DNA of 48,632 nucleotides from Actinomycetota bacterium (lineage in GTDB: Bacteria; Actinomycetota; Actinomycetes; S36-B12; GCA-2699445): positions 1 through 48,632 of the forward strand of contig JAPOIY010000020.1 of NCBI GenBank assembly GCA_029978705.1, read 5' to 3'. Positions 11,732 to 26,506 of this stretch are shown here, piece after piece. The translations under genes and the position numbers were made by a program. Within the stretch, counting starts at the first letter, position 1. The number at the start of each line of letters is the position of its first letter. The notes below the pieces were generated by a model. It saw only the letters and a list, made by a program, of their open reading frames with translations. It was not told the DNA's origin and made no database searches.

Positions 11732-13029
11732 CACTGCAGGTCCCCGGCGACGACCGTCGGTCGGCCGCGCAGGATCGTGGTGGTGACACGTCCGGGCAGC
11801 GTCATGCGGCGGTACGGCGAGTTGCGGGCCGGGCCGGGGAAGGCCCACGGGTCCACGGTCCACTCGTCGTCATCGGCGACCGCGGTGAGGTTCGCCGGCT
11901 CCCCCACGGCGATCGGGCGACCCTGGTCGGGCACCCGGCCGATCGCCGCCGGGGCAGCCGACAGCCGGTCCGCCACCCCGGCCCAGTCGAGCAGACCGGG
12001 ACGCACCATCGTGTCGATCACGACGGACAGGGCGGTGGGCAGGCCGATCATGCCGAAGGCGGCGGCGTCCCACTCGCAGTCCTTGTCCTCGGACGTGTGC
12101 GGCGCGTGGTCGGTGGCGACGATGTCGATCGTGCCGTCGGCCAGCGCCATACGCAGCGCCTGCACGTCGCGGTCGGTGCGCAGCGGCGGGTTGACCTTGT
12201 AGATGGGGTCGTAGCTGCGGGCCAGTTCGTCGGTCAGCAGCAGGTGGTGCGGGGTGACCTCCGCCGTGACCGCGATGCCCCGCTCCTTGGCGCGGCGGAT
12301 CAGGTCGACGCTGCCGGCGGTCGAGACGTGGCAGACGTGCAGCCGGGACCCGACATGGGCGGTCAGGAGGATGTCGCGGGCGATGATCGACTCCTCCGCG
12401 GCGGCGGGCCAGCCCCGCAGCCCGAGGATCGCGGACACCGCGCCCTCGTTCATCTGGGCGCCGACGGTGAGGCGCGGCTCCTGGGCGTGCTGGGCGATGA
12501 CGCCGTCGAACGCCTTGACGTACTCGAGGGCGCGCCGCATCAGCAGCGCGTCGTCGACGCACTTGCCGTCGTCGCTGAAGACGCGCACGTGGGCGGCGGA
12601 GTCGGCCATGGCGCCCAGTTCGGCGAGTTGCTCGCCGCCCAGACCCAGCGTGACCGCGCCGACCGGGTGCACGTCCACGTAGCCGGCTTCCTGCCCGAGC
12701 CGGAACACCTGCTCCACGACCCCGGCGGTGTCGGCGACGGGATCGGTGTTGGCCATCGCGTGTACGGCGGTGAAGCCGCCGAGGGCCGCTGCCGCCGACC
12801 CGCTGCGTACGGTCTCGGCGTCCTCGCGGCCCGGCTCGCGCAGGTGGGTGTGCAGGTCCACCAGCCCGGGCAGCAGGATCTGTCCGGACAGGTCCAGGGC
12901 CCGCACGCCCTCGGGCGGGGCGGGGGACCCGGCGGGCGTGAGGTCGGCGATGACACCGTCGGCGATGAGCACGTCCGTCGGGGCGCCGCCCAAGGGGCGT
13001 ACCCCCTGCAGCAGGATCCGCTCGCTCAC
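11728..13029 (-). CDS. pyrC: Dihydroorotase PyrC
   Basis: Zinc amidohydrolase that closes carbamoyl aspartate to dihydroorotate. The 433-residue type I enzyme has the metal-binding [10 protein letters not shown] (His60, His62, substrate Arg64), the HVCHVST and [13 protein letters not shown] His-bearing strands, the catalytic Asp in VATDHAPHT, and a C-terminal amidohydrolase tail. GTG at 13027-13029 overlaps the pyrB TGA as GTGA, giving VSERILL as N-terminus; longer in-frame extensions lie inside pyrB. Type I dihydroorotases often associate with PyrB, which is its neighbour. Confidence 0.96.
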
Positions 13030-13985
13030 ACGATCACCTCGGTCGGCTCCGGCTGGCGCGAGCCGCCGACCAGGAGATACAGCACGGCCATCCGGACGCT
13101 GACGCCGTTGGCGACCTGCTCCACGATGACCGAACGGTCGTGGTCGGCGACGCCGTCGGCGATCTCCATGCCGCGGTTCATGGGTCCGGGGTGCATGACG
13201 ATGGCGTGCTCGGGCAGCATGTCCATGCGCACCTGGTCGAGCCCGTAGCGACGGCTGTACTCGCGGGCGCTGGGGAAGAAGGCCGCGTTCATGCGCTCCC
13301 GCTGCACCCGCAGCATCATGACGGCGTCGCTCTCGGGCAGCGGGTCGTCCAGCGAGTACGACACCGTGACCGGCCACTCCTCGACCCCGACCGGCAGCAG
13401 GGTCGGCGGGGCGACGACGGTGACCTTGGCGCCGAGGGTGTCCAGCAGGTGCACGTTGGAGCGCGCCACGCGGCTGTGCAGGACGTCGCCGACGATCGTG
13501 ACCCGCAGGCCCGACAGGTCGCCCTCCCCGCCACGCAGGTGGCGGCGGATCGTGAAGGCGTCGAGGAGCGCCTGCGTGGGGTGTTCGTGGGTGCCGTCGC
13601 CGGCGTTGACGACGGCCCCGTCGATCCAGCCCGCCTCGGCGAGCCGGTGCGGGGCGCCGGAGGAGCCGTGCCGGATGACGACGGCGTCCGCCCCCATCGC
13701 CTGCAGCGTCAGCGCCGTGTCCTTCAGGGTCTCCCCCTTCGACACCGACGACCCCTTGGCGGAGAAGTTGATGACGTCGGCGGACAGCCGCTTGGCGGCC
13801 GCCTCGAAGGAGATCCGGGTGCGGGTGGAGTCCTCGAAGAAGAGGTTCACGACCGTCTTGCCCCGCAGCGCCGGGAGTTTCTTGACAGACCGGTCCGACA
13901 GCGTGGCCATCTCGGCGGCGGTGTCGAGGACGAGCACGGCGTCCTCGTGGTCCAGATCCGCGGCGGACAACAGGTGCGGGATCAT
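13026..13985 (-). CDS. pyrB: Aspartate carbamoyltransferase catalytic subunit PyrB
   Basis: Joins carbamoyl phosphate and aspartate, the committed step of pyrimidine synthesis. The 319-residue protein has the carbamoyl-phosphate motif [12 protein letters not shown] (Ser53-Thr54-Arg55-Thr56), the [12 protein letters not shown] motif, and the aspartate-binding [10 protein letters not shown] and MHPGPMNRG loops. No pyrI regulatory chain is present, as is usual in actinobacteria, so regulation probably acts through PyrR. The ATG overlaps the pyrR stop as ATGA. Confidence 0.97.
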
Positions 13986-14560
13986 GACCCGCCCTCCCGC
14001 ATGAGCACGATCTCGTCGACCCCGTCGATCTCGGTCAGCCGCATCCGCACGGTCTCGCCGCGGTGGGTGGGCAGGTTCTTGCCCACGTGGTCGGCCCGGA
14101 TCGGCAGCTCCCGGTGCCCGCGGTCGACGATGACGGCGAGCCGGACGGCGCGGGGGCGCCCGATGTCGTGCAGGGCGTTCAGGGCGGCGCGCACCGTGCG
14201 GCCCGAGAACAGGACGTCGTCGACGAGCACGACGGTGCGCCCGTCGATGCCGTCGGAGGGGATCTCGGTGGGTCCGAGGGCGCGGGCCGGGTGAAGCGCG
14301 AGGTCGTCGCGGTACATGGTGACGTCGAGCGAGCCGACGGGCACCGGCCGGCCTTCGGCGGCTTGGATCCGGGCGGCGATCCGCTGCGCCAGGATGGCGC
14401 CGCGGGTGGGGATGCCCAGGATGACGAGGTCGTCGGCGCCTTTGGCGTGTTCGATGATCTCGTGGGAGATCAGGGTGAGGGCCCGGGTGAGGTCGCCGGC
14501 GTCGAGAACGACGGGACCGACCTCCGCGGTCGCGGACGGCACGCGGTCCGAAGCCACCAT
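13982..14560 (-). CDS. pyrR: Bifunctional pyr regulator / uracil phosphoribosyltransferase PyrR
   Basis: UMP-responsive RNA-binding regulator of pyrimidine genes with weak uracil phosphoribosyltransferase activity. The 192-residue product has the PRPP-binding signature [18 protein letters not shown] and the N-terminal [16 protein letters not shown] strand. I chose ATG at 14558-14560, which follows GAAGGGG by 5 bases. A GTG two codons earlier lies inside this Shine-Dalgarno sequence and is rejected. A PyrR-binding-loop-like hairpin lies immediately upstream. PyrR in mycobacteria is known to repress translation of its own operon, and this layout suits that mode. It heads the pyr operon. Confidence 0.96.
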
Positions 14561-14572
14561 GAGCACCCCTTC

Positions 14573-14590
14573 GCCGCCTCGCCGGACGGC
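14573..14590 (-). promoter_or_regulatory. PyrR-binding-loop-like hairpin in the pyrR leader
   Basis: The minus strand reads GCCGTCCGGCGAGGCGGC. It folds with GCC/GGC and CC/GG arms, one bulged U and a GGCGA loop. Bases 2-11 of the known PyrR target ARUCCnGnGAGGYU match exactly, and the Y position also matches (GUCCGGCGAGGC). It abuts the Shine-Dalgarno GAAGGGG (14566-14572), so bound PyrR would block ribosome access. The match is seen directly; regulation is inferred from mycobacterial PyrR. Confidence 0.7.
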
Positions 14591-14611
14591 TGCTTAAAGG
14601 ACTGTTCCTTC

Positions 14612-14617
14612 ACTGTA
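14612..14617 (-). promoter_or_regulatory. Possible -10 element for the pyr operon
   Basis: TACAGT fits TAnnnT and would start a leader of about 45 bases that contains the PyrR hairpin. No clear -35 box is seen at the usual spacing. A short inverted repeat (AAGGA-CTGT-TCCTT, plus strand 14597-14610) lies at the predicted start. Confidence 0.35.
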
Positions 14618-14702
14618 ACCCACGGTCCGGGGGCGCCCGCGGGCGCCGCGTGCCGAACGGGTGTGCGCCACGCAATGTGACGAAGCCCGCACGTAGCATC
14701 GG

Positions 14703-14731
14703 TTGGGCGACCCCGGGCGACTACGTATGGT
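14703..14731 (+). promoter_or_regulatory. Candidate bldD promoter
   Basis: TTGGGC at 14703-14708 and TATGGT at 14726-14731 are separated by 17 bases, a good sigma-70-type spacing. The predicted leader is about 42 bases and ends with AGGGGAG before the bldD ATG. Confidence 0.5.
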
Positions 14732-14779
14732 TATGACAGGTCGACAGGGGGAACGACCACGACAGTCAGGGGAGATGAG

Positions 14780-15268
14780 ATGGCCAGCGACTACGCACGA
14801 GCTCTCGGCGGCCGGCTGCGGGCGATCCGGCAGCAGCAGGGCCTGTCGCTGCAGGGCGTCGAAGAGAAGTCCGGCGGCCGCTGGAAGGCTGTCGTCGTGG
14901 GCTCCTACGAACGCGGCGACCGGGCCGTGACCGTGGCCAAGCTGGCGGAGTTGGCCGACTTCTACGGGGTCCCGGTCGCGGAGTTGCTGCCCGGCGGCAT
15001 GGCGGGGGCCGCTTTCGAGCCGCCCGCGCAGATCATCATCGACCTCGCACAGCTCGACCGGATCCCGCCGGACAAGGGCGGCCCGCTGGCGCGGTACGCG
15101 GCCGCGATCCAGACCCAACGGGGGGACTACAACGGCCGGGTGCTGTCGATCCGGGCCGACGATCTGCGCACCCTGGCCGTCATCTACGACCAGCCGCCCG
15201 GCGCGCTCGCGGAGGAACTGATCTCGTGGGGCGTGCTCAACCCGGAGGCGCGGGCCGCCGTCGACTGA
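14780..15268 (+). CDS. bldD: Developmental/c-di-GMP-responsive regulator BldD
   Basis: DNA-binding regulator that in Streptomyces represses sporulation genes when dimerised by tetrameric c-di-GMP. The 162-residue protein has an N-terminal helix-turn-helix of XRE type (about residues 8-70, GGRLRAIRQQQGLSLQGVE, GSYERGDRAVTVAKLAELAD). Its C-terminal domain carries the complete c-di-GMP signature RGD-x8-RxxD: Arg114-Gly-Asp116 and Arg125-Ala-Asp-Asp128. The ATG follows AGGGGAG. It is divergent from pyrR, as in Streptomyces. Presence of the ligand motif suggests c-di-GMP control, but the developmental programme of this organism is unknown. Confidence 0.95.
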   Translation: MASDYARALGGRLRAIRQQQGLSLQGVEEKSGGRWKAVVVGSYERGDRAVTVAKLAELADFYGVPVAELLPGGMAGAAFEPPAQIIIDLAQLDRIPPDKGGPLARYAAAIQTQRGDYNGRVLSIRADDLRTLAVIYDQPPGALAEELISWGVLNPEARAAVD

Positions 15269-18740: not shown

Positions 18741-20198
18741 TCAGACAGTCAGGGGGCGCGCTGACGCGGGGATGGGCCGGGGCAGGTTGCTCGCGGCCCC
18801 CGTCAGGTAGCTGTCGACGGTGGCGGCGGCCGCCCGACCCTCCGCGATGGCCCACACGATCAGGGACTGGCCGCGGCCGGCGTCGCCCGCCACGAACACC
18901 CCGTCGGCTGCGGTGCTGTAGTCGTCCCGCCGGGCGATGTTGCCGCGCTCGTCGAGGGTCACACCGAACTGCTCGACCCAGGAGTCCCCCTCGACCCCGG
19001 TGAACCCCATGGCGAGGAACACGAAGTCGGCCGGGATGCGCCGTTCGCTGCCCGGGACGGGCTGGAAGCCGCTCGCTCCCCTCTCGACCTCGACGAGTTC
19101 CAGCTCGCGGACCCGGCCGTTGCCGTCGTCGACGAACTGCTGGGTGGACACGGAGTAGAGCCGTTCGCCGCCCTCCTCGTGGGCGCTGGCGACCCGGTAG
19201 ATCATCGGGTAGGTGGGCCACGGCTGCCCGGCGGGCCGCTCCTCGGTGGGGTGCGGCATGATCTCCAACTGCGTGACCGAGGCGGCACCCTGCCGGTGCG
19301 CGGTGCCCAGGCAGTCCGCCCCGGTGTCCCCCCCGCCGATGATGACGACGTGTCTGCCGTAGACGTCGATGTCGGACCGGTCGGCGTCCCCCTGGCACAC
19401 GCGGTTGGCCAGCGGCAGGTACTCCATCGCCTGGTGCACTCCCGCCAGGTCGCGCCCCGGCACGGGCAGGTCGCGCCACTGCGTGGCGCCGACGGCGAGT
19501 ACGACGGCGTCGTACCGCTCGCGTACGTCCTCGCCGGTGATGTCGCGGCCCACGTCGACACCCGTGCGGAACCGCACCCCTTCCCCGGCCATCTGCTCCA
19601 GGCGGCGGTCGAGGTGACTCTTCTCCATCTTGAACTCGGGGATGCCGTAGCGCAGGAGGCCACCGACCCGGTCGGCGCGCTCGAGCACGGCCACGGTGTG
19701 GCCCGCCCGGGCGAGCTGTTGGGCGGCGGCCAGTCCGGCGGGCCCGGAGCCGACGACGGCGACGGTCTTGCCGGACTGCCGCGTCGGGATCTGGGGCTGT
19801 ACCCAGCCGCTGTCCCAGGCCGTGTCGATGATGGAGACCTCGACCTGCTTGATCGTCACGGCGGGCTGGTTGATCCCCAGCACACAGGCGGTCTCGCACG
19901 GCGCCGGGCACAGGCGACCGGTGAACTCGGGGAAGTTGTTGGTGGCGTGCAACCGCTCGCTGGCGGCCCGCCAGTCACCCCGCCACACCAGGTCGTTCCA
20001 CTCCGGGATGAGGTTGCCCAGCGGGCAGCCGTTGTGGCAGAACGGGATGCCGCAGTCCATGCAGCGACCGGCCTGGGTCTGCAGGCGGGTGTCGTCGAAG
20101 TCCTCGTACACCTCCTGCCAGTCACGGATGCGCACGTCGACCGGACGCCGCTGGGGCAGTTCACGGCCCGCTTTCAGGAATCCCCGGGGATCAGCCAT
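18741..20198 (-). CDS. gltD: Glutamate synthase (NADPH), small subunit GltD
   Basis: Supplies electrons from NADPH through FAD and iron-sulfur clusters to GltB. The 485-residue protein has the cysteine-rich N-terminus ([14 protein letters not shown] at 46-59; CPAPCETAC at 97-105), which binds [4Fe-4S] clusters. It also has two dinucleotide folds, [12 protein letters not shown] (about 149-160) for FAD and [14 protein letters not shown] for NADPH, and the closing [18 protein letters not shown]. The ATG overlaps the gltB stop by 8 bases (ATGGCTGA), giving tight coupling. Confidence 0.98.
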
Positions 20199-23100
20199 TG
20201 CTGCTCGCCTCCATCACTGCCGCGACCGGGTCACGGCCTTCCAGTTCGGCCAGGGCACGGGCCTGCAGGACCCGCTTGTAGTCGGTGGGCATGACTTTGC
20301 CGAACCGCTCGAGCGCCGCGTCGGGGTCGGCGAGCAACCCCGCCGCGACGGCGGAGTCGGTCTCCTCGAGGTGGCGGCGCATGATGTCGAGGAGGAATTC
20401 GCGGTCCTCTGCGTCGAGTGGTTCGAGCCGCACCATCTCCTGGTTGATGCGCAGCGGGTCGGGGTCGAGCAGATAGGCGACGCCGCCGGACATCCCGGCC
20501 GCAAAGTTGCGGCCGGTATCGCCCAGCACCACGACGCGGCCGCCGGTCATGTACTCGCAGCCGTGGTCGCCGATGCCCTCGACGACTGCGGTGGCTCCCG
20601 AGTTGCGGACGCAGAACCGTTCCCCGACGCGGCCGCGCAGGAAGATCTCGCCGGAGGTGGCGCCGTAGCCGATCACGTTGCCGGCGATGATGTGCTCCTC
20701 GGCGGGGAACGGCGCCGCCCGGTCGGGGCGGATCACGATCCGGCCCCCGGACAGGCCCTTGCCGACGTAGTCGTTCCCGTCACCCTCCAGGCGGAGGGTG
20801 ACACCGGCCGGGACGAACGCGCCGAAGGACTGTCCGGCGGACCCCAGCAGGGTGAGGTCCACGGTGCCGTCGGGCAGCCCGGCGCCGCCGTGAGCGCGGG
20901 TGATCTCGGCGCCGAGCATGGTGCCGACCGTGCGGTTCACGTTGCGGATGCGCACCTGGGCGCGCACCGGCTCCCCCGCGTCGATCGCGGGCCGGCAGAT
21001 CTCGATGAGGTCGTTGTCCAGCGCGTGCTGCAGCCCGTGATCCTGGGCCACGACCCGGTGGCGGGGGTGATCGACGTCGGGGACGTGCAGGATCGGGCTG
21101 AGGTCCAGCCCGGCGGCCTTCCAGTGTGCGACCGCGTCGGTGGTGTCGAGCAGTTCGGCGTGGCCGATCGCCTCGTCGAGGCTGCGGAACCCGAGTTCCG
21201 CGAGGTACTCGCGCACCTGCTCGGCGATGAACAGGAAGAAGTTCACGACGTGGTCGGCGCTCCCGGAGAACCGGTCCCGCAGCGTCGGGTTCTGGGTCGC
21301 GATCCCGACCGGGCAGGTGTCGAGGTGGCAGACCCGCATCATGACGCAGCCCAGGACCACCAGGGGGGCCGACGAGAACCCGAACTCCTCGGCGCCCAGC
21401 AGGGCGGCGATGACGACATCGCGACCTGTCTTCAACTGACCGTCGGTCTGCACCACGACGCGGTCGCGCAGCCCGTTGAGCAGCAGCGTCTGCTGGGTCT
21501 CCGCGAGCCCCAGTTCCCAGGGCGCACCCGCGTGCTTGAGCGACGTGAGCGGGGAGGCTCCCGTGCCGCCGTCGTGGCCGGAGATGAGGATGACGTCGGC
21601 GTGCGCCTTGCTCACGCCGGCGGCGACGGTGCCGACCCCGACCTCCGACACCAGTTTCACGTGGATGCGGGCGCGGTTGTTGGCGTTCTTCAGGTCGTGG
21701 ATCAGTTGCGCCAGATCCTCGATGGAGTAGATGTCGTGGTGCGGCGGCGGCGAGATGAGCCCGACGCCGGGCGTGGAGTGCCGGGTCTTGGCGACCCACG
21801 GGTACACCTTGTGGCCGGGCAGCTGGCCACCTTCGCCCGGTTTCGCTCCCTGCGCCATCTTGATCTGGATGTCGTCGGAGTTGACCAGGTACTCGCTGGT
21901 CACGCCGAAGCGGCCCGACGCGACCTGCTTGATGGCACTGCGGCGGGAATCCCCGTCGGCGAGGGGCAGGAAACGTTCGGGGTCCTCGCCGCCCTCGCCG
22001 GTGTTGGACTTCGCACCGAGGCGGTTCATGGCGATGGCCAGCGTCTCGTGCGCCTCGGCGGAGATCGACCCGTAGGACATGGCCCCGGTGGAGAACCGCT
22101 TCACGATCTCACTGGCGGGCTCCACCTCGGCCAGCGGCACGGGAGGCCGGGCGCCGTCGCGGAACGAGAACAGCCCGCGCAGTGTCATGAGCCGCTGGGC
22201 CTGGTCGTCCACGCGGTCGGTGTATTGGCGGAAGATCTCGGCACTCTTCTCGCGGGTGGCGTGCTGCAGCCGGAACACGGTCTCGGGGTCGAACAGGTGC
22301 TGTTCGCCCTCGCGGCGCCACTGGTACTCCCCGCCGACACCGAGGCGGCGGTGGGCCGGCGAGATGCCGCTGGGCGGGTAGGCCACGCGGTGGCGCATGG
22401 CGACCTCTTCGGCGATGACGTCGAGACCCACGCCGCCCAGTTTCGAGGTGGTCCCGGTGAAGTAGCGGTCGACCAGTTCCCGCGACAGTCCGACGGCCTC
22501 GAAGATCTGGGCGCCGCAGTAGGAGGAGACGGTGGACACCCCCATCTTGGACATGACCTTGAGCACGCCCTTGCCGAGCGCCTTGACGAGGTTGCGCACC
22601 GCCGCCTCGGGGGTCAGGTCGTCGAGCATGCCGCGGCGGGCCAGGGCCTCCGCGGTCTCCATGGCCAGATAGGGGTTGACGGCGGCGGCTCCGTAGCCGA
22701 TGAGGAGGGCCACGTGATGGACCTCGCGCACATCCCCCGCCTCGACGATGATGCCGACCATCGTGCGGGTCTTCTCCCGCACCAGGTGGTGGTGCACGGC
22801 GGCGGTGAGCAGCAGCGAGGGGATCGGCGCCAGATCGGCGTCGGCGTCGCGGTCGGACAGGATGATGAACCGTTTGCCCTGTCGGATGACGGCGTCGACC
22901 TCGTTGCAGATCTCCTCGATGCGGCGGCGCAACGCGGCACCGCCCCCGGCGACCGGGTACAGCCCCGAGACGCGGGCGCCGGCCAGTCCCGGCCGGTCCC
23001 CGTCGGCGTTGATGTTGGCGATCTTGGCCAGGTCGTCGTTGGTGATGACGGGGAACGGCAGGCGCACCTGGCGGCAGCTGGACGCGTCGGCGGCGAGCAG

Positions 23101-24714
23101 GCTGCCCTCCGGGCCGATGGTGGTGCCCAGTGACGTCACGATCTCCTCGCGGATGGCGTCCAGCGGCGGGTTGGTGACCTGGGCGAACAGTTGGGCGAAG
23201 TAGTCGAACAGCAGCCGTGGCCGGTCGCTGAGCACCGCGATGGGGGTGTCGGTGCCCATTGAGCCGATCGGCTCCGCCCCGGTGCGCGCCATCGGCGTCA
23301 GGAGGATGCGCACCTCCTCCTCGGTGTAGCCGAAGCCCTGCTGGCGGCGCAGGACCGATCCCTGGGTGTAGACGACGTGTTCGCGGTCGGGCAGGTCGTC
23401 GAGGTGGATGATGCCGTTGCGCAGCCACTCGTCGTACGGATGTTCGGCGGCCAGTTCCGCCTTGATCTCGTCGTCCTCCTTGATCCGCCCCGCGGCGGTG
23501 TCCACAAGGAACATGCGGCCCGGCTGGAGCCGGCCTTTGCGCACGACGGTGGCGGGGTCGAGGTCGAGCACCCCGGCCTCGGAGGCGAGGACGACCAGCC
23601 CATCGTCGGTGACCCAGAAGCGGCCGGGCCGCAGCCCGTTGCGGTCCAGGACCGCACCGATGACCGTGCCGTCGGTGAAGGAGACGTTGGCCGGGCCGTC
23701 CCACGGCTCCATGAGCGTGGAGTGGTACTCGTAGAAGGCCCGCCGGGCGGGATCCATGTCGGCGTGGTTCTCCCACGCCTCGGGGATCATCATGAGGACC
23801 GCGTGGGGCAGCGAGCGGCCGCCGAGGTGCAGCAGCTCGAGGACCTCGTCGAAGGAGGCCGAGTCGCTGGCTCCGGGCGTGCAGATCGGGTAGAGCCGGG
23901 TGAGGTCGCCGGGGATGCGGTCGGAGGTCAGCATGGCCTCCCGGGCGCGCATCCAGTTGCGGTTGCCCATGACGGTGTTGATCTCGCCGTTGTGGGCGAT
24001 CAGGCGGTAGGGATGCGCCAGCGGCCACGACGGGAACGTGTTGGTGGAGAACCGCGAGTGCACCAGGCCGATGGCGGATTCGTACCGCTCGTCGCGCAGG
24101 TCGGGGTAGAAACGGCCCAGTTGGGCGGTCGTGAGCATCCCCTTGTACGTGATGGTGCGGCACGACAGCGACGGGAAGTAGACGTCGGTCTCGGTCTCGG
24201 CCCGCCGGCGCAGGCAGAACGCCCGGCGCTCCAGGTCCAGGCCGGCTGCGCCGCCCGCCGCCACGAACAACTGGCGGAAGCGGGGCATCACGCTGCGGGC
24301 CGTGTGCCCGACGGGGGTGGGGTCGGTGGGCACGTCGCGCCAGCCGAGAACGGTGAGTCCCTCGTCGGCGGCGAGGGCCTCGATCCGCGCGACGGCCACC
24401 GCGGCGCGGTCCTCCTCCTGCGGCAGGAAGGCGGTGCCGGCCGCGTACTGGCCGGCGGGGGGCAGCGCGAAGCCGGCGACGGCGCGGAAGAACGTGTCGG
24501 GGAGCTGGGTCAGGATGCCGGCACCGTCACCGGAGTCGGGTTCGGACCCGGAGGCGCCGCGGTGTTCCAGGTTCTCCAGGGCGGTCAGCGCCTGGGAGAC
24601 GATCTCGTGGCTCGGTACCCCGGTCAGGGTGGCGACGAAGGCGACCCCGCACGCGTCCCGCTCGAAACGCGGGTCGTACAGACCCTGGGCGGGGGGGATG
24701 GCTGCGTACAGCAT
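20191..24714 (-). CDS. gltB: Glutamate synthase (NADPH), large subunit GltB
   Basis: Makes two glutamates from glutamine and 2-oxoglutarate, using electrons from GltD. The 1507-residue protein begins with a 21-residue propeptide, after which Cys22 (in [16 protein letters not shown]) becomes the N-terminal nucleophile of the glutaminase domain. The FMN synthase domain includes [39 protein letters not shown] and the 3Fe-4S cysteine segment [18 protein letters not shown]. The C-terminal beta-helix domain carries the [20 protein letters not shown] repeats. The ATG at 24712-24714 follows GGAG at the base of a long leader hairpin. An in-frame upstream extension toward lgt is not coding. Confidence 0.98.
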
Positions 24715-24724
24715 GGCGGTTCTC

Positions 24725-24775
24725 CGTCGTCGGCGTGCGGGGTCCCGGCTCCGGACCGGGGCACGCGGGACGACG
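24725..24775 (-). promoter_or_regulatory. Long leader hairpin directly before gltB
   Basis: Three nested stems pair: CGTCGTC (24725-24731) with GACGACG (24769-24775), GCGTG (24733-24737) with CACGC (24762-24766), and CCCGG (24744-24748) with CCGGG (24756-24760), leaving a 7-base loop. The base of the stem touches the GGAG ribosome-binding site, 8 bases from the gltB ATG. The 17 pairs are seen directly; regulation is inferred. Confidence 0.5.
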
Positions 24776-24794
24776 TTGGCCCGCGGCTGGTGGC

Positions 24795-24817
24795 AGCATA
24801 CCCCGCCCGGTGCGGGG
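24795..24817 (-). promoter_or_regulatory. Candidate gltB promoter overlapping a GC hairpin after lgt
   Basis: On the minus strand a hairpin CCCCGC-ACCGG-GCGGGG (24801-24817) follows the lgt stop and is immediately succeeded by the -10-like TATGCT (24795-24800). TTGCCG lies 19 bases further upstream. This could both end the upstream transcript and start gltB, with a leader of about 75 bases. Confidence 0.4.
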
Positions 24818-24830
24818 AGCGGCAAGTCGG

Positions 24831-25712
24831 CTAGCGGGCGGCGTCCTGCTCCTGGCCGGTGTCGTGCCCGTCCCGGGCGGCGTGCGGCTGGAGGTCCTGC
24901 GGCGGCTCGCGGCCGGGCCGCAGGCGCGCGCTGATGATGATGTAGACCACCGCGCCCAGCCCGACGACGACGGCGGTCCACACGTTCAGCCGCAGCCCCA
25001 GCACGGTGTGGGCGGGGTCGATGCGCAGCGCCTCGATCCACACCCGGCCCAGGCAGTACAGCGCCACGTAGAGGGCGAAGACGCGCCCGTGGCCCATGCG
25101 GAAGCGGCGGTCGGCCCAGATGAGGATGCCGAACACGGCGAGGTTCCACAGCGCCTCGTACAGGAACGTGGGATGGAACGTCTCGGCCAGCTCGAACCCG
25201 GGAGGGCGGTTGGCCGGGTCGATCTGCAGACCCCACGGCAGGTCGGTGGGGGCCCCGAACAGTTCCTGGTTGAACCAGTTGCCGAACCGACCGATGGCCT
25301 GCGCGAGCACCACGCCGGGCGCGACGGCGTCACCCAGCGGGGGCAGCGGGATGCCGTGGCGGCGGCACGCGATCCAGGCGCCCAGCGCGCCGCCCAGCAC
25401 GGCGCCCCAGATCCCGAGGCCGCCCTGCCAGATCTGCACCGCCCCGGCCCAGCCGCTGCCGCCGGGACCGAAGTAGATCTGGTTGTCGGTGATGACGTGG
25501 TAGAGGCGCCCTCCCACGATGCCGAAGGGCACCGCCCACAGGGCGACGTCCGCAACGAATCCCGACTGGCCACCGCGGGCGACCCACCGTCGGTTGCCCA
25601 CCCACACCGCGACGACGATGCCGACGATGATGAGCAGGGCGTAGGCCCGCACGGGCAGCGGCCCCAGGTTCCAGACCCCGGTCTCGGGGCTGGGGATGGC
25701 GGCGGGGATCAC
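24831..25712 (-). CDS. lgt: Prolipoprotein diacylglyceryl transferase Lgt
   Basis: Membrane enzyme that moves diacylglycerol from phosphatidylglycerol to the lipobox cysteine of prolipoproteins. The 293-residue protein has about seven membrane spans and the signature [20 protein letters not shown] with the phosphatidylglycerol-binding Arg. It also has [10 protein letters not shown], the [11 protein letters not shown] motif and a charged cytoplasmic tail. GTG at 25710-25712 overlaps the DsbA-like gene stop as GTGA. lgt downstream of trp genes is common in actinobacteria. lspA, the next enzyme of the pathway, is near the other end of the window. Confidence 0.96.
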
Positions 25713-26506
25713 TGCTGGTTCTGGGCGGCGTCCTGGATGGCCTGCTTGAAGGCCTCGGGGTTGGCGCGGGCGGAGTCGGGCAGTTCCTTGCCGTTGAGGT
25801 AGATGGCCGGGGTACCCGGCACGCCGGCGGCCTTCATCGCCTCGGTGCCGTTGACGGCCCAGGTGAGGTAGGTGCGGTCGGTGACGCACTTGTCGAAGGT
25901 CGCCTTGGCGTCACCGCTGATCCCGGCCTTCTCGCCGAAGGCGATCAGCTGGGCGTCGGTCCAGCCCTGACCCTCGGTGGCGGGCTGGTTGGCGTAGAGG
26001 ATGTCGTGGTACTCCTCGCCCTTGCCGGCGTCGATGGCGCACCCGTAGGCGGCGGCGGCCCTCTTGGAGTGGTCCCCGGGGAAGTTGGAGTCCAGGAACG
26101 ACGTGCTCCGGAAGATCACTTGGGCATCGTTGTTCGCCACGACCTCTTTCACGGTCGGCCCGAAGGACGCCTCGAAATCGCCGCAGGCGGGACACTGGAA
26201 GTCCTCCCAGATCTCCAGGACGGGTTTGCCGGCCGCGTTGTCGGTCCACTCGATGCCGTACTGGTAGGGCGAGTCGGCCGGGAACGCGCCGGCGGGGGCC
26301 ACCGCGTCGGCACTCGGCTGGGTCTTCTGCTGGTTCTGCTGGCTCGTGTACCAGGCGCCTCCCACGAGGGCCCCGACCACGACCACCAGGACCACGCCGA
26401 TGACGACGTTGATGGTCCTGCGGCGCCGCTTGTCGGACGCCTCCGCGGCGGCGCGGGCCTCGGCCGCCTTCTCCCGGGCGGACTTGGGCTTCGGCTGACT
26501 AGCCAT
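25709..26506 (-). CDS. Membrane-anchored DsbA/thioredoxin-like protein
   Basis: Probable extracytoplasmic disulfide oxidoreductase. The 265-residue protein has a basic, Ala/Lys-rich cytoplasmic start, one membrane span (about 33-53, NVVIGVVLVVVVGALVGGAW), and a thioredoxin fold of DsbA_4/BdbD type. The active site is WEDFQCPACGD (Cys105 and Cys108), and the cis-proline loop is GVPGTPAIYLNG. Two further cysteines (AYGCAID and FDKCVTD) may form a structural disulfide. The ATG at 26504-26506 follows AAGGAG and overlaps the MauE-like gene by 8 bases. The MauE-DsbA pair suggests a membrane partner that reoxidises or reduces it. Lgt follows. Confidence 0.9.
   Translation of the reverse strand: MASQPKPKSAREKAAEARAAAEASDKRRRRTINVVIGVVLVVVVGALVGGAWYTSQQNQQKTQPSADAVAPAGAFPADSPYQYGIEWTDNAAGKPVLEIWEDFQCPACGDFEASFGPTVKEVVANNDAQVIFRSTSFLDSNFPGDHSKRAAAAYGCAIDAGKGEEYHDILYANQPATEGQGWTDAQLIAFGEKAGISGDAKATFDKCVTDRTYLTWAVNGTEAMKAAGVPGTPAIYLNGKELPDSARANPEAFKQAIQDAAQNQQ

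Follow-up and report, generated by a model that had tools for sequence, protein, structure and literature searches.

The window analysed here, a stretch of 48,632 nucleotides from an Actinomycetota bacterium, carries at the predicted 5' end of the gltB message a conserved leader RNA that is probably a translational switch of this gene, read by a PdtaR-type ANTAR regulator. The computed support consists of the conservation of the element, its position, the covariation of its first helix (P1), the presence of an anti-core segment before the Shine-Dalgarno (SD) sequence, and the co-occurrence with PdtaS and ANTAR proteins. In the mechanism that we propose, P1 (24785-24764, minus strand) would form first, presumably while the message is still being transcribed. 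Unless something prevents it, the P1 loop would then be captured by the pre-SD segment GACGACG in a second helix (P2, 24775-24725), which would hinder ribosome binding and leave the switch OFF. The kinase PdtaS would drive a response regulator of the PdtaR type, whose ANTAR domain binds RNA, and this presumed binder would recognise in the P1 loop one hexaloop of the form C[ANYGNY]GU. The bound loop would be kept from downstream pairing, so that the SD region would be open and the switch, in the polarity that we favour, ON.

The gltB leader and its 5'-terminal hairpin

The controlled gene gltB codes for the large subunit of glutamate synthase and is read from the minus strand (20191-24714, ATG at 24714-24712; Pfam GATase_2, Glu_syn_central, Glu_synthase and GXGXG), and its end is overlapped by gltD for the small subunit (18741-20198, minus strand; Fer4_20 and Pyr_redox_2). 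Upstream on the same strand is lgt (24831-25889 as an open frame with a predicted start; LGT), whose stop bounds the gltB leader and lies 116 nt from gltB; Pfam confirms these three genes, and also one for pyruvate kinase, in this gene run. The plus strand of the window also holds a 1145-codon open frame antisense to gltB and gltD (19696-23133), most likely a high-GC artefact. Elsewhere in the window (13026-14780) a pyrR-like phosphoribosyltransferase gene is followed by a pyrB-like aspartate/ornithine carbamoyltransferase gene.

The original prediction placed before gltB a 51-base hairpin of 17 pairs that ends at the ribosome-binding site and follows a -10-like TATGCT by about 20 bases. The hairpin is present at exactly 24775-24725, with 19 pairs (7+6+6) in the minimum-energy fold in place of the 17; it abuts the SD sequence GGAG (24725-24722), 7 nt before the ATG, and the TATGCT box was located at 24800-24795, 19 nt upstream of the first arm. 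The leader folds better than its shuffles (z -3.1 when 78 nt are folded and -4.0 when 141 nt are, with 0/200 shuffles as good in each case), while the plus strand at the same place reaches a z of only -1.5. The 51-base hairpin is thus real, but it is one of two competing folds: its first arm doubles as the loop of a second, 5'-terminal hairpin, P1. It is P1, and not the long hairpin, that is deeply conserved, and what relatives share is a 14-nt core, GGCCAACGTCGTCC (24781-24768, minus strand), at the inferred gltB transcription start. The core closes a small hairpin that in the window consists of a 5' arm CGCGGG (24785-24780), the loop CCAACGUCGU (24779-24770) and a 3' arm CCCGCG (24769-24764).

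In 148 of 180 distinct leaders the core is preceded by a TANNNT box whose end lies 8-20 nt away (peak 9-12); a control window of equal width has such a box in 12. From this spacing, transcription would be expected to start near the foot of P1, making the element the 5' end of the message. A start inside or after the 51-base hairpin had been named as an outcome that would speak against a control function; the position of the -10-like box puts the probable start before P2, at the P1 foot.

The covariation of P1 was scored on an alignment of 111 leaders, which remained after a similarity filter from 147 distinct sequences among 153 core-bearing leaders; a copy of the window (L001) was excluded from all counts. 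Over the six pairs the score was 0.278, compared with 0.138 +- 0.014 for shuffled alignments (0/500 as high), and double-change cells numbered 90 versus 52.7 in shuffles. In every slid register the score was lower. Below the loop, P1 consists of one C-G pair, an invariant C.U mismatch, two invariant pairs and about four covarying ones; because the two inner G-C pairs do not vary in these 111 leaders, they are uninformative on covariation.

In the order, gltB was found in 142 of 166 genomes (G012 and G058, with matches at E about 1e-3 and 30-37% identity, are counted as lacking it), and 133 leaders were read, with nine gltB-bearing genomes set aside (G070, G099, G119, G126, G130, G131, G132, G138 and G165). 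The core is present in 128 of the 133: 127 fit the strict pattern, and G028 (AGCC...GTCT) carries a compensatory A-U in place of the outer, otherwise invariant G-C. It is absent from the leaders of G005, G006 and G007, which belong to the same family as the window, and from those of G011 and G141. A wider scan found the core at 26 of 80 loci, with carriers labelled Nocardioides, Flexivirga, Lentzea, Microbacterium, Micromonospora, Dactylosporangium, Acidimicrobiia and others; none of the wider-scan loci labelled Mycobacterium, Mycolicibacterium or Rhodococcus fits the strict pattern. Among further leaders of the class, 22 of 25 hold the core with at most one mismatch, a count that omits L303, whose gltB match has 41% identity. 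The element is also present, in a short leader, in genus g55, whose genomes span 6-11 Mb.

A plain search for the core pattern in whole genomes was too noisy at high GC and was replaced by a covariance model of P1, which matched 126/166 genomes of the order at E 0.05 and 105/296 of the class at E 0.02, mostly once per genome. Of the loci fetched by this model, 54/56 hold gltB; the other two (L258 and L261) lie inside unrelated coding sequence and were rejected, as were extra core matches inside unrelated coding frames of G007 and G012. In Rfam 15 no matching family was found, with only chance matches for the window at the gathering threshold and for eight leader loci at E up to 5. Our literature search, which covered open-access articles as far as their text was available, found no description of this leader element. 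Taken together, a conserved RNA element is almost certainly associated with gltB.

Competition at the Shine-Dalgarno sequence

In the window, the 5' strand of P2 (CGUCGUC, 24775-24769) lies within the P1 loop and takes in one base of the P1 arm. It pairs in the minimum-energy fold with GACGACG (24731-24725), which touches the SD sequence. The spacer between (24763-24732) is lineage-specific, varying in length and sequence among relatives; in the window it contributes to inner helices that prolong P2 and complete the 51-base hairpin. Many leaders have a pre-SD complement of the 3' half of the core, such as GGACGACG, GACGACG, CGACA or GGACAACA. When scanned independently of the core, an anti-core segment was found 0-5 nt before the SD sequence in 98 of 147 leaders, where shuffles gave an expectation of 12.0.

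Coordinated change was also seen. Over 136 leaders, own cores pair on the whole better with their SD-proximal segments than cores swapped among leaders do (14.39 vs 13.43 +- 0.15, 0/1000 swaps as good), C or T at core position 7 associates with G or A in the partner (Fisher p 3e-4), and full swaps of core and partner, e.g. TGTTGTCC/GGACAACA, occur in family f27, in small genomes. Not every core variant, however, has a matching pre-SD partner, and this idea was rejected: of 52 variant cores, 24 paired better than the consensus core would, 21 paired worse and 7 equally well. The covariation of P2 is weaker than that of P1. Compensatory changes in the gltB leaders of relatives, whose absence the original prediction had set as grounds for its refutation, do exist, strongly in P1 and more weakly in P2; together with the conserved position behind a promoter, they give good support to the part of the prediction that saw a control element at the ribosome-binding site.

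Since P1 and P2 share bases, the two helices compete, except where P2 uses loop bases only and a pseudoknot could form. The P2 fold of the window is calculated to be 15.7 kcal/mol more stable than the fold in which P1 is held, so only a kinetic, co-transcriptional switch could work. Holding the P1 loop raised the modelled SD accessibility modestly, from 0.352 to 0.432, with an increase in 84 and a decrease in 40 of 150 leaders. We consider it quite likely that the element acts on translation initiation through the competition of P1 and P2.

The same geometry raises the main rival explanation, a metabolite riboswitch in which P1 and P2 together form an H-type pseudoknot whose ligand could be glutamine, glutamate, 2-oxoglutarate or some other compound and which closes the ribosome-binding site. 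Stem 1 would be P1, stem 2 the loop paired with the pre-SD segment, and CCAN the first loop, and leaders in which P2 needs only core positions 7-12 have this geometry. The loop nucleotides are conserved far beyond the needs of pairing, the element is associated with a single gene, and both pseudoknots at ribosome-binding sites and a gltD leader motif are known candidates elsewhere, according to the available text of PMC8632094. However, P2 in family f27 uses C13 and C14, and in L294 only 9 nt separate the strands, so that P1 and P2 are mutually exclusive there; nor does a riboswitch explain the co-loss with PdtaS and ANTAR proteins while gltB stays. We therefore hold this explanation to be unlikely, at somewhat better than one chance in five.

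The P1 loop and the PdtaS-PdtaR pair

Read as a hexaloop, the core has the form C[A-N-Y-G-N-Y]GU, the signature of ANTAR-target RNAs, in single and not dual copy. In the window the hexaloop reads AACGUC (24777-24772), where A occupies position 1 and G position 4, and is closed by C24778-G24771 followed by U24770. The functional letters of the eutP ANTAR hairpin are A27, C28, A29, G32, G35 and U36, in the part of PMC3369931 available; P1 matches five of the six (C28, A29, G32, G35 and U36), whereas the A27-U36 pair is replaced by C.U in the gltB leader. The closing C, G and U match in all rows, though the pattern by which the rows were picked forces them. Hexaloop position 1 (core A5) is A in 167 and G in 12 of 179 leaders. 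The G form (GGCCGACG...), a variant specific to certain lineages, was observed in L063, L066, L083, L104, L043, L051, L282, L286, L293 and L300, from lineages that include ones labelled Dactylosporangium, Micromonospora, Humibacter and Microbacterium. Position 4 (core G8) is G in 179/179, which the strict row-picking pattern likewise forces; a search allowing up to four substitutions found no leader in the order with G8 changed.

Two features of classical ANTAR targets were not found. Of 178 leaders, 14 have a second ANNGNN hairpin with a 3-pair stem no more than 60 nt away; as shuffling would give 22.9, this is less than chance, and the predicted second hexaloop was rejected on this count. 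Directly under the hexaloop there is one C-G pair and then the C.U mismatch, and not a stem of at least 3 pairs. By these dual-hexaloop and stem criteria we do not place the element among the classical ANTAR RNAs; its mode of action may be similar. A crystal study, in its available text, redefined the minimal ANTAR site as one hexaloop, reported G4 as the only base-specific contact, found a single hexaloop sufficient for EutV binding and called for a search for single-hexaloop sites (PMC8934654). This redefinition and the match in loop letters were the reason for examining the co-occurrence with ANTAR proteins.

ANTAR proteins were found in 130/166 genomes of the order and 293/296 of the class, and the PdtaS GAF domain in 131/166 of the order. 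With kinship ignored, PdtaS occurs in 117/128 genomes of the order with the element, 0/5 with gltB but without the element and 6/24 without gltB, and the corresponding numbers for ANTAR are 116/128, 1/5 and 6/24. The one ANTAR protein inspected from G011, where gltB lacks the core, is a 465-residue frame, longer than and unlike PdtaR. For metK, the only control gene and not part of a signalling system, the numbers were 120/128, 5/5 and 19/24. Among element-bearing genomes with a completeness of 90% or more and a contamination of 5% or less, ANTAR was missing in 2/68, PdtaS in 1/68 and metK in 3/68; the misses of the signalling genes do not exceed those of metK and are thus at the level of assembly gaps. 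One genome of the class (G187, 96% complete) has the element without an ANTAR match. Many genomes with an element-free gltB, or with no model match, encode ANTAR proteins as well; because these proteins are nearly universal in the class regardless of the element, the link between element and ANTAR runs one way.

Genus g39 (G142-G164), with small genomes, offers a natural experiment in the loss of the GOGAT cycle and its presumed regulator. With an N-terminal query, gltB was absent from 16 of its 23 genomes, most of which also lack PdtaS and ANTAR: ANTAR was found in 2 and PdtaS in 1 of these 16, and both signalling genes in 7/7 genomes with gltB. In a separate lineage (f26 g59), gltB is absent in all three genomes tested and ANTAR in two.

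The ANTAR protein of the window's own genome (G000:C89, outside the window) has 190 residues with a receiver and an ANTAR domain. Its closest PDB entry is 1s8n (5e-55), which we take to be Rv1626, that is PdtaR, followed by EutV (2e-35). Judging from the co-occurrence and the likeness of the loop, it seems likely that a PdtaR-type ANTAR protein reads the gltB leader. GltBD is an iron-sulfur enzyme, and an iron or redox signal is therefore as plausible as a nitrogen signal; a nitrogen link, as suggested in the original prediction, would be one candidate, and the genomic evidence points to the PdtaS/PdtaR signalling pair. According to the available text of the sources, PdtaS-PdtaR is an established pair in Streptomyces, with SCO2013 as PdtaR and SCO5239 as PdtaS in S. 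coelicolor (PMC9739842), and in Mycobacterium smegmatis PdtaS binds heme and its mutant dysregulates Fe-S and iron genes (PMC11537054).

In many Actinomycetes a gene for a PdtaR-like ANTAR protein was seen at a distance of 8-16 kb from gltB. This neighbourhood is conserved, and it is exemplified by G266:C1 (gltB 693342, ANTAR 685629) and G331:C1 (element 1716842, ANTAR 1725561) and also seen in G342 and G379; in the window's genome the two genes are on different contigs. A further explanation is that the loop is recognised by a different RNA-binding protein or by a small RNA and that the correlation with PdtaS and ANTAR reflects shared gene loss or neighbourhood. The 8-16 kb linkage in many genomes of the class could indeed drive co-loss, and the counts ignore kinship. 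Against this, the genes need not be close in genus g39, where G161 has 15 kb downstream of gltB without an ANTAR gene, and PdtaS, at a third locus, follows the same pattern; we regard such a reader as improbable, more so than a riboswitch. If the hairpin were incidental, the partly palindromic 14-mer near the inferred start could be a DNA operator to which a repressor binds. This is very improbable: paired covariation extends to stem positions beyond the core, complementary segments are found again and again ahead of the SD sequence, and the model-fetched loci hold no second copy in promoters of other genes.

Known leader RNAs and the significance of the element

Glutamate synthase is central to nitrogen assimilation. 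Its leader in these bacteria shares with ANTAR-target RNAs (the eutP, nasF and amiE leaders and an actinobacterial set described in the available text of PMC8164766) an A1 and G4 hexaloop closed by C-G and followed by U, the position in a leader, and the presence of an ANTAR response regulator and the PdtaS kinase in the same genomes. It differs from them in its one hexaloop, the C.U mismatch in the stem and the competing fold, which is placed at the ribosome-binding site and is not a terminator. The survey of actinobacterial ANTAR RNAs was limited to dual hexaloops, and its main text, as available, mentions neither gltB nor glutamate synthase (PMC8164766).

The glutamine riboswitches of cyanobacteria (glnA RNA and Downstream-peptide) are also leader RNAs, and the genes of glnA RNA serve nitrogen assimilation and include glutamate synthase (PMC2864571); unlike them, the gltB leader gave no match to their Rfam covariance models for the window and eight leader loci at E up to 5. 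The gltD (SRC-18-1) motif of Selenomonadales and Veillonellales likewise precedes a glutamate synthase gene as a candidate cis-regulatory RNA and has a hairpin that covers the ribosome-binding site, but it belongs to another phylum and precedes gltD as the first gene, a distinction drawn by description and not by sequence (PMC8632094, in its available text). The H-type pseudoknot riboswitches that capture the SD sequence, preQ1-I and SAM-II, resemble the gltB leader in that the loop of a small hairpin pairs with a segment of the ribosome-binding site; unlike theirs, our leader has no Rfam match. Its core is presumably also unlike their sequences.

The gltB leader is conserved from genomes of about 1 Mb to the 6-11 Mb genomes of genus g55, and yet it is without a family in Rfam 15. 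If a metabolite reads it, it would be a new riboswitch for nitrogen metabolism. If the ANTAR reading holds, the element would be a widespread and so far undescribed control switch of nitrogen assimilation. With PdtaR as the reader, a regulator conserved across the class would gain a concrete core target, and the single-hexaloop proposal (PMC8934654, as far as available) could be tested on an ancient example. We give even odds to the broader proposition that the near-universal PdtaS-PdtaR pair of Actinomycetes shares one target of deep conservation: an ANTAR site with a single hexaloop, located at the extreme 5' end of the gltB mRNA, which would control translation by competing with the pre-SD segment. 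If this is true, the basic role of PdtaR would be to regulate the translation of glutamate synthase, and ANTAR sites with one hexaloop would be a real and overlooked class.
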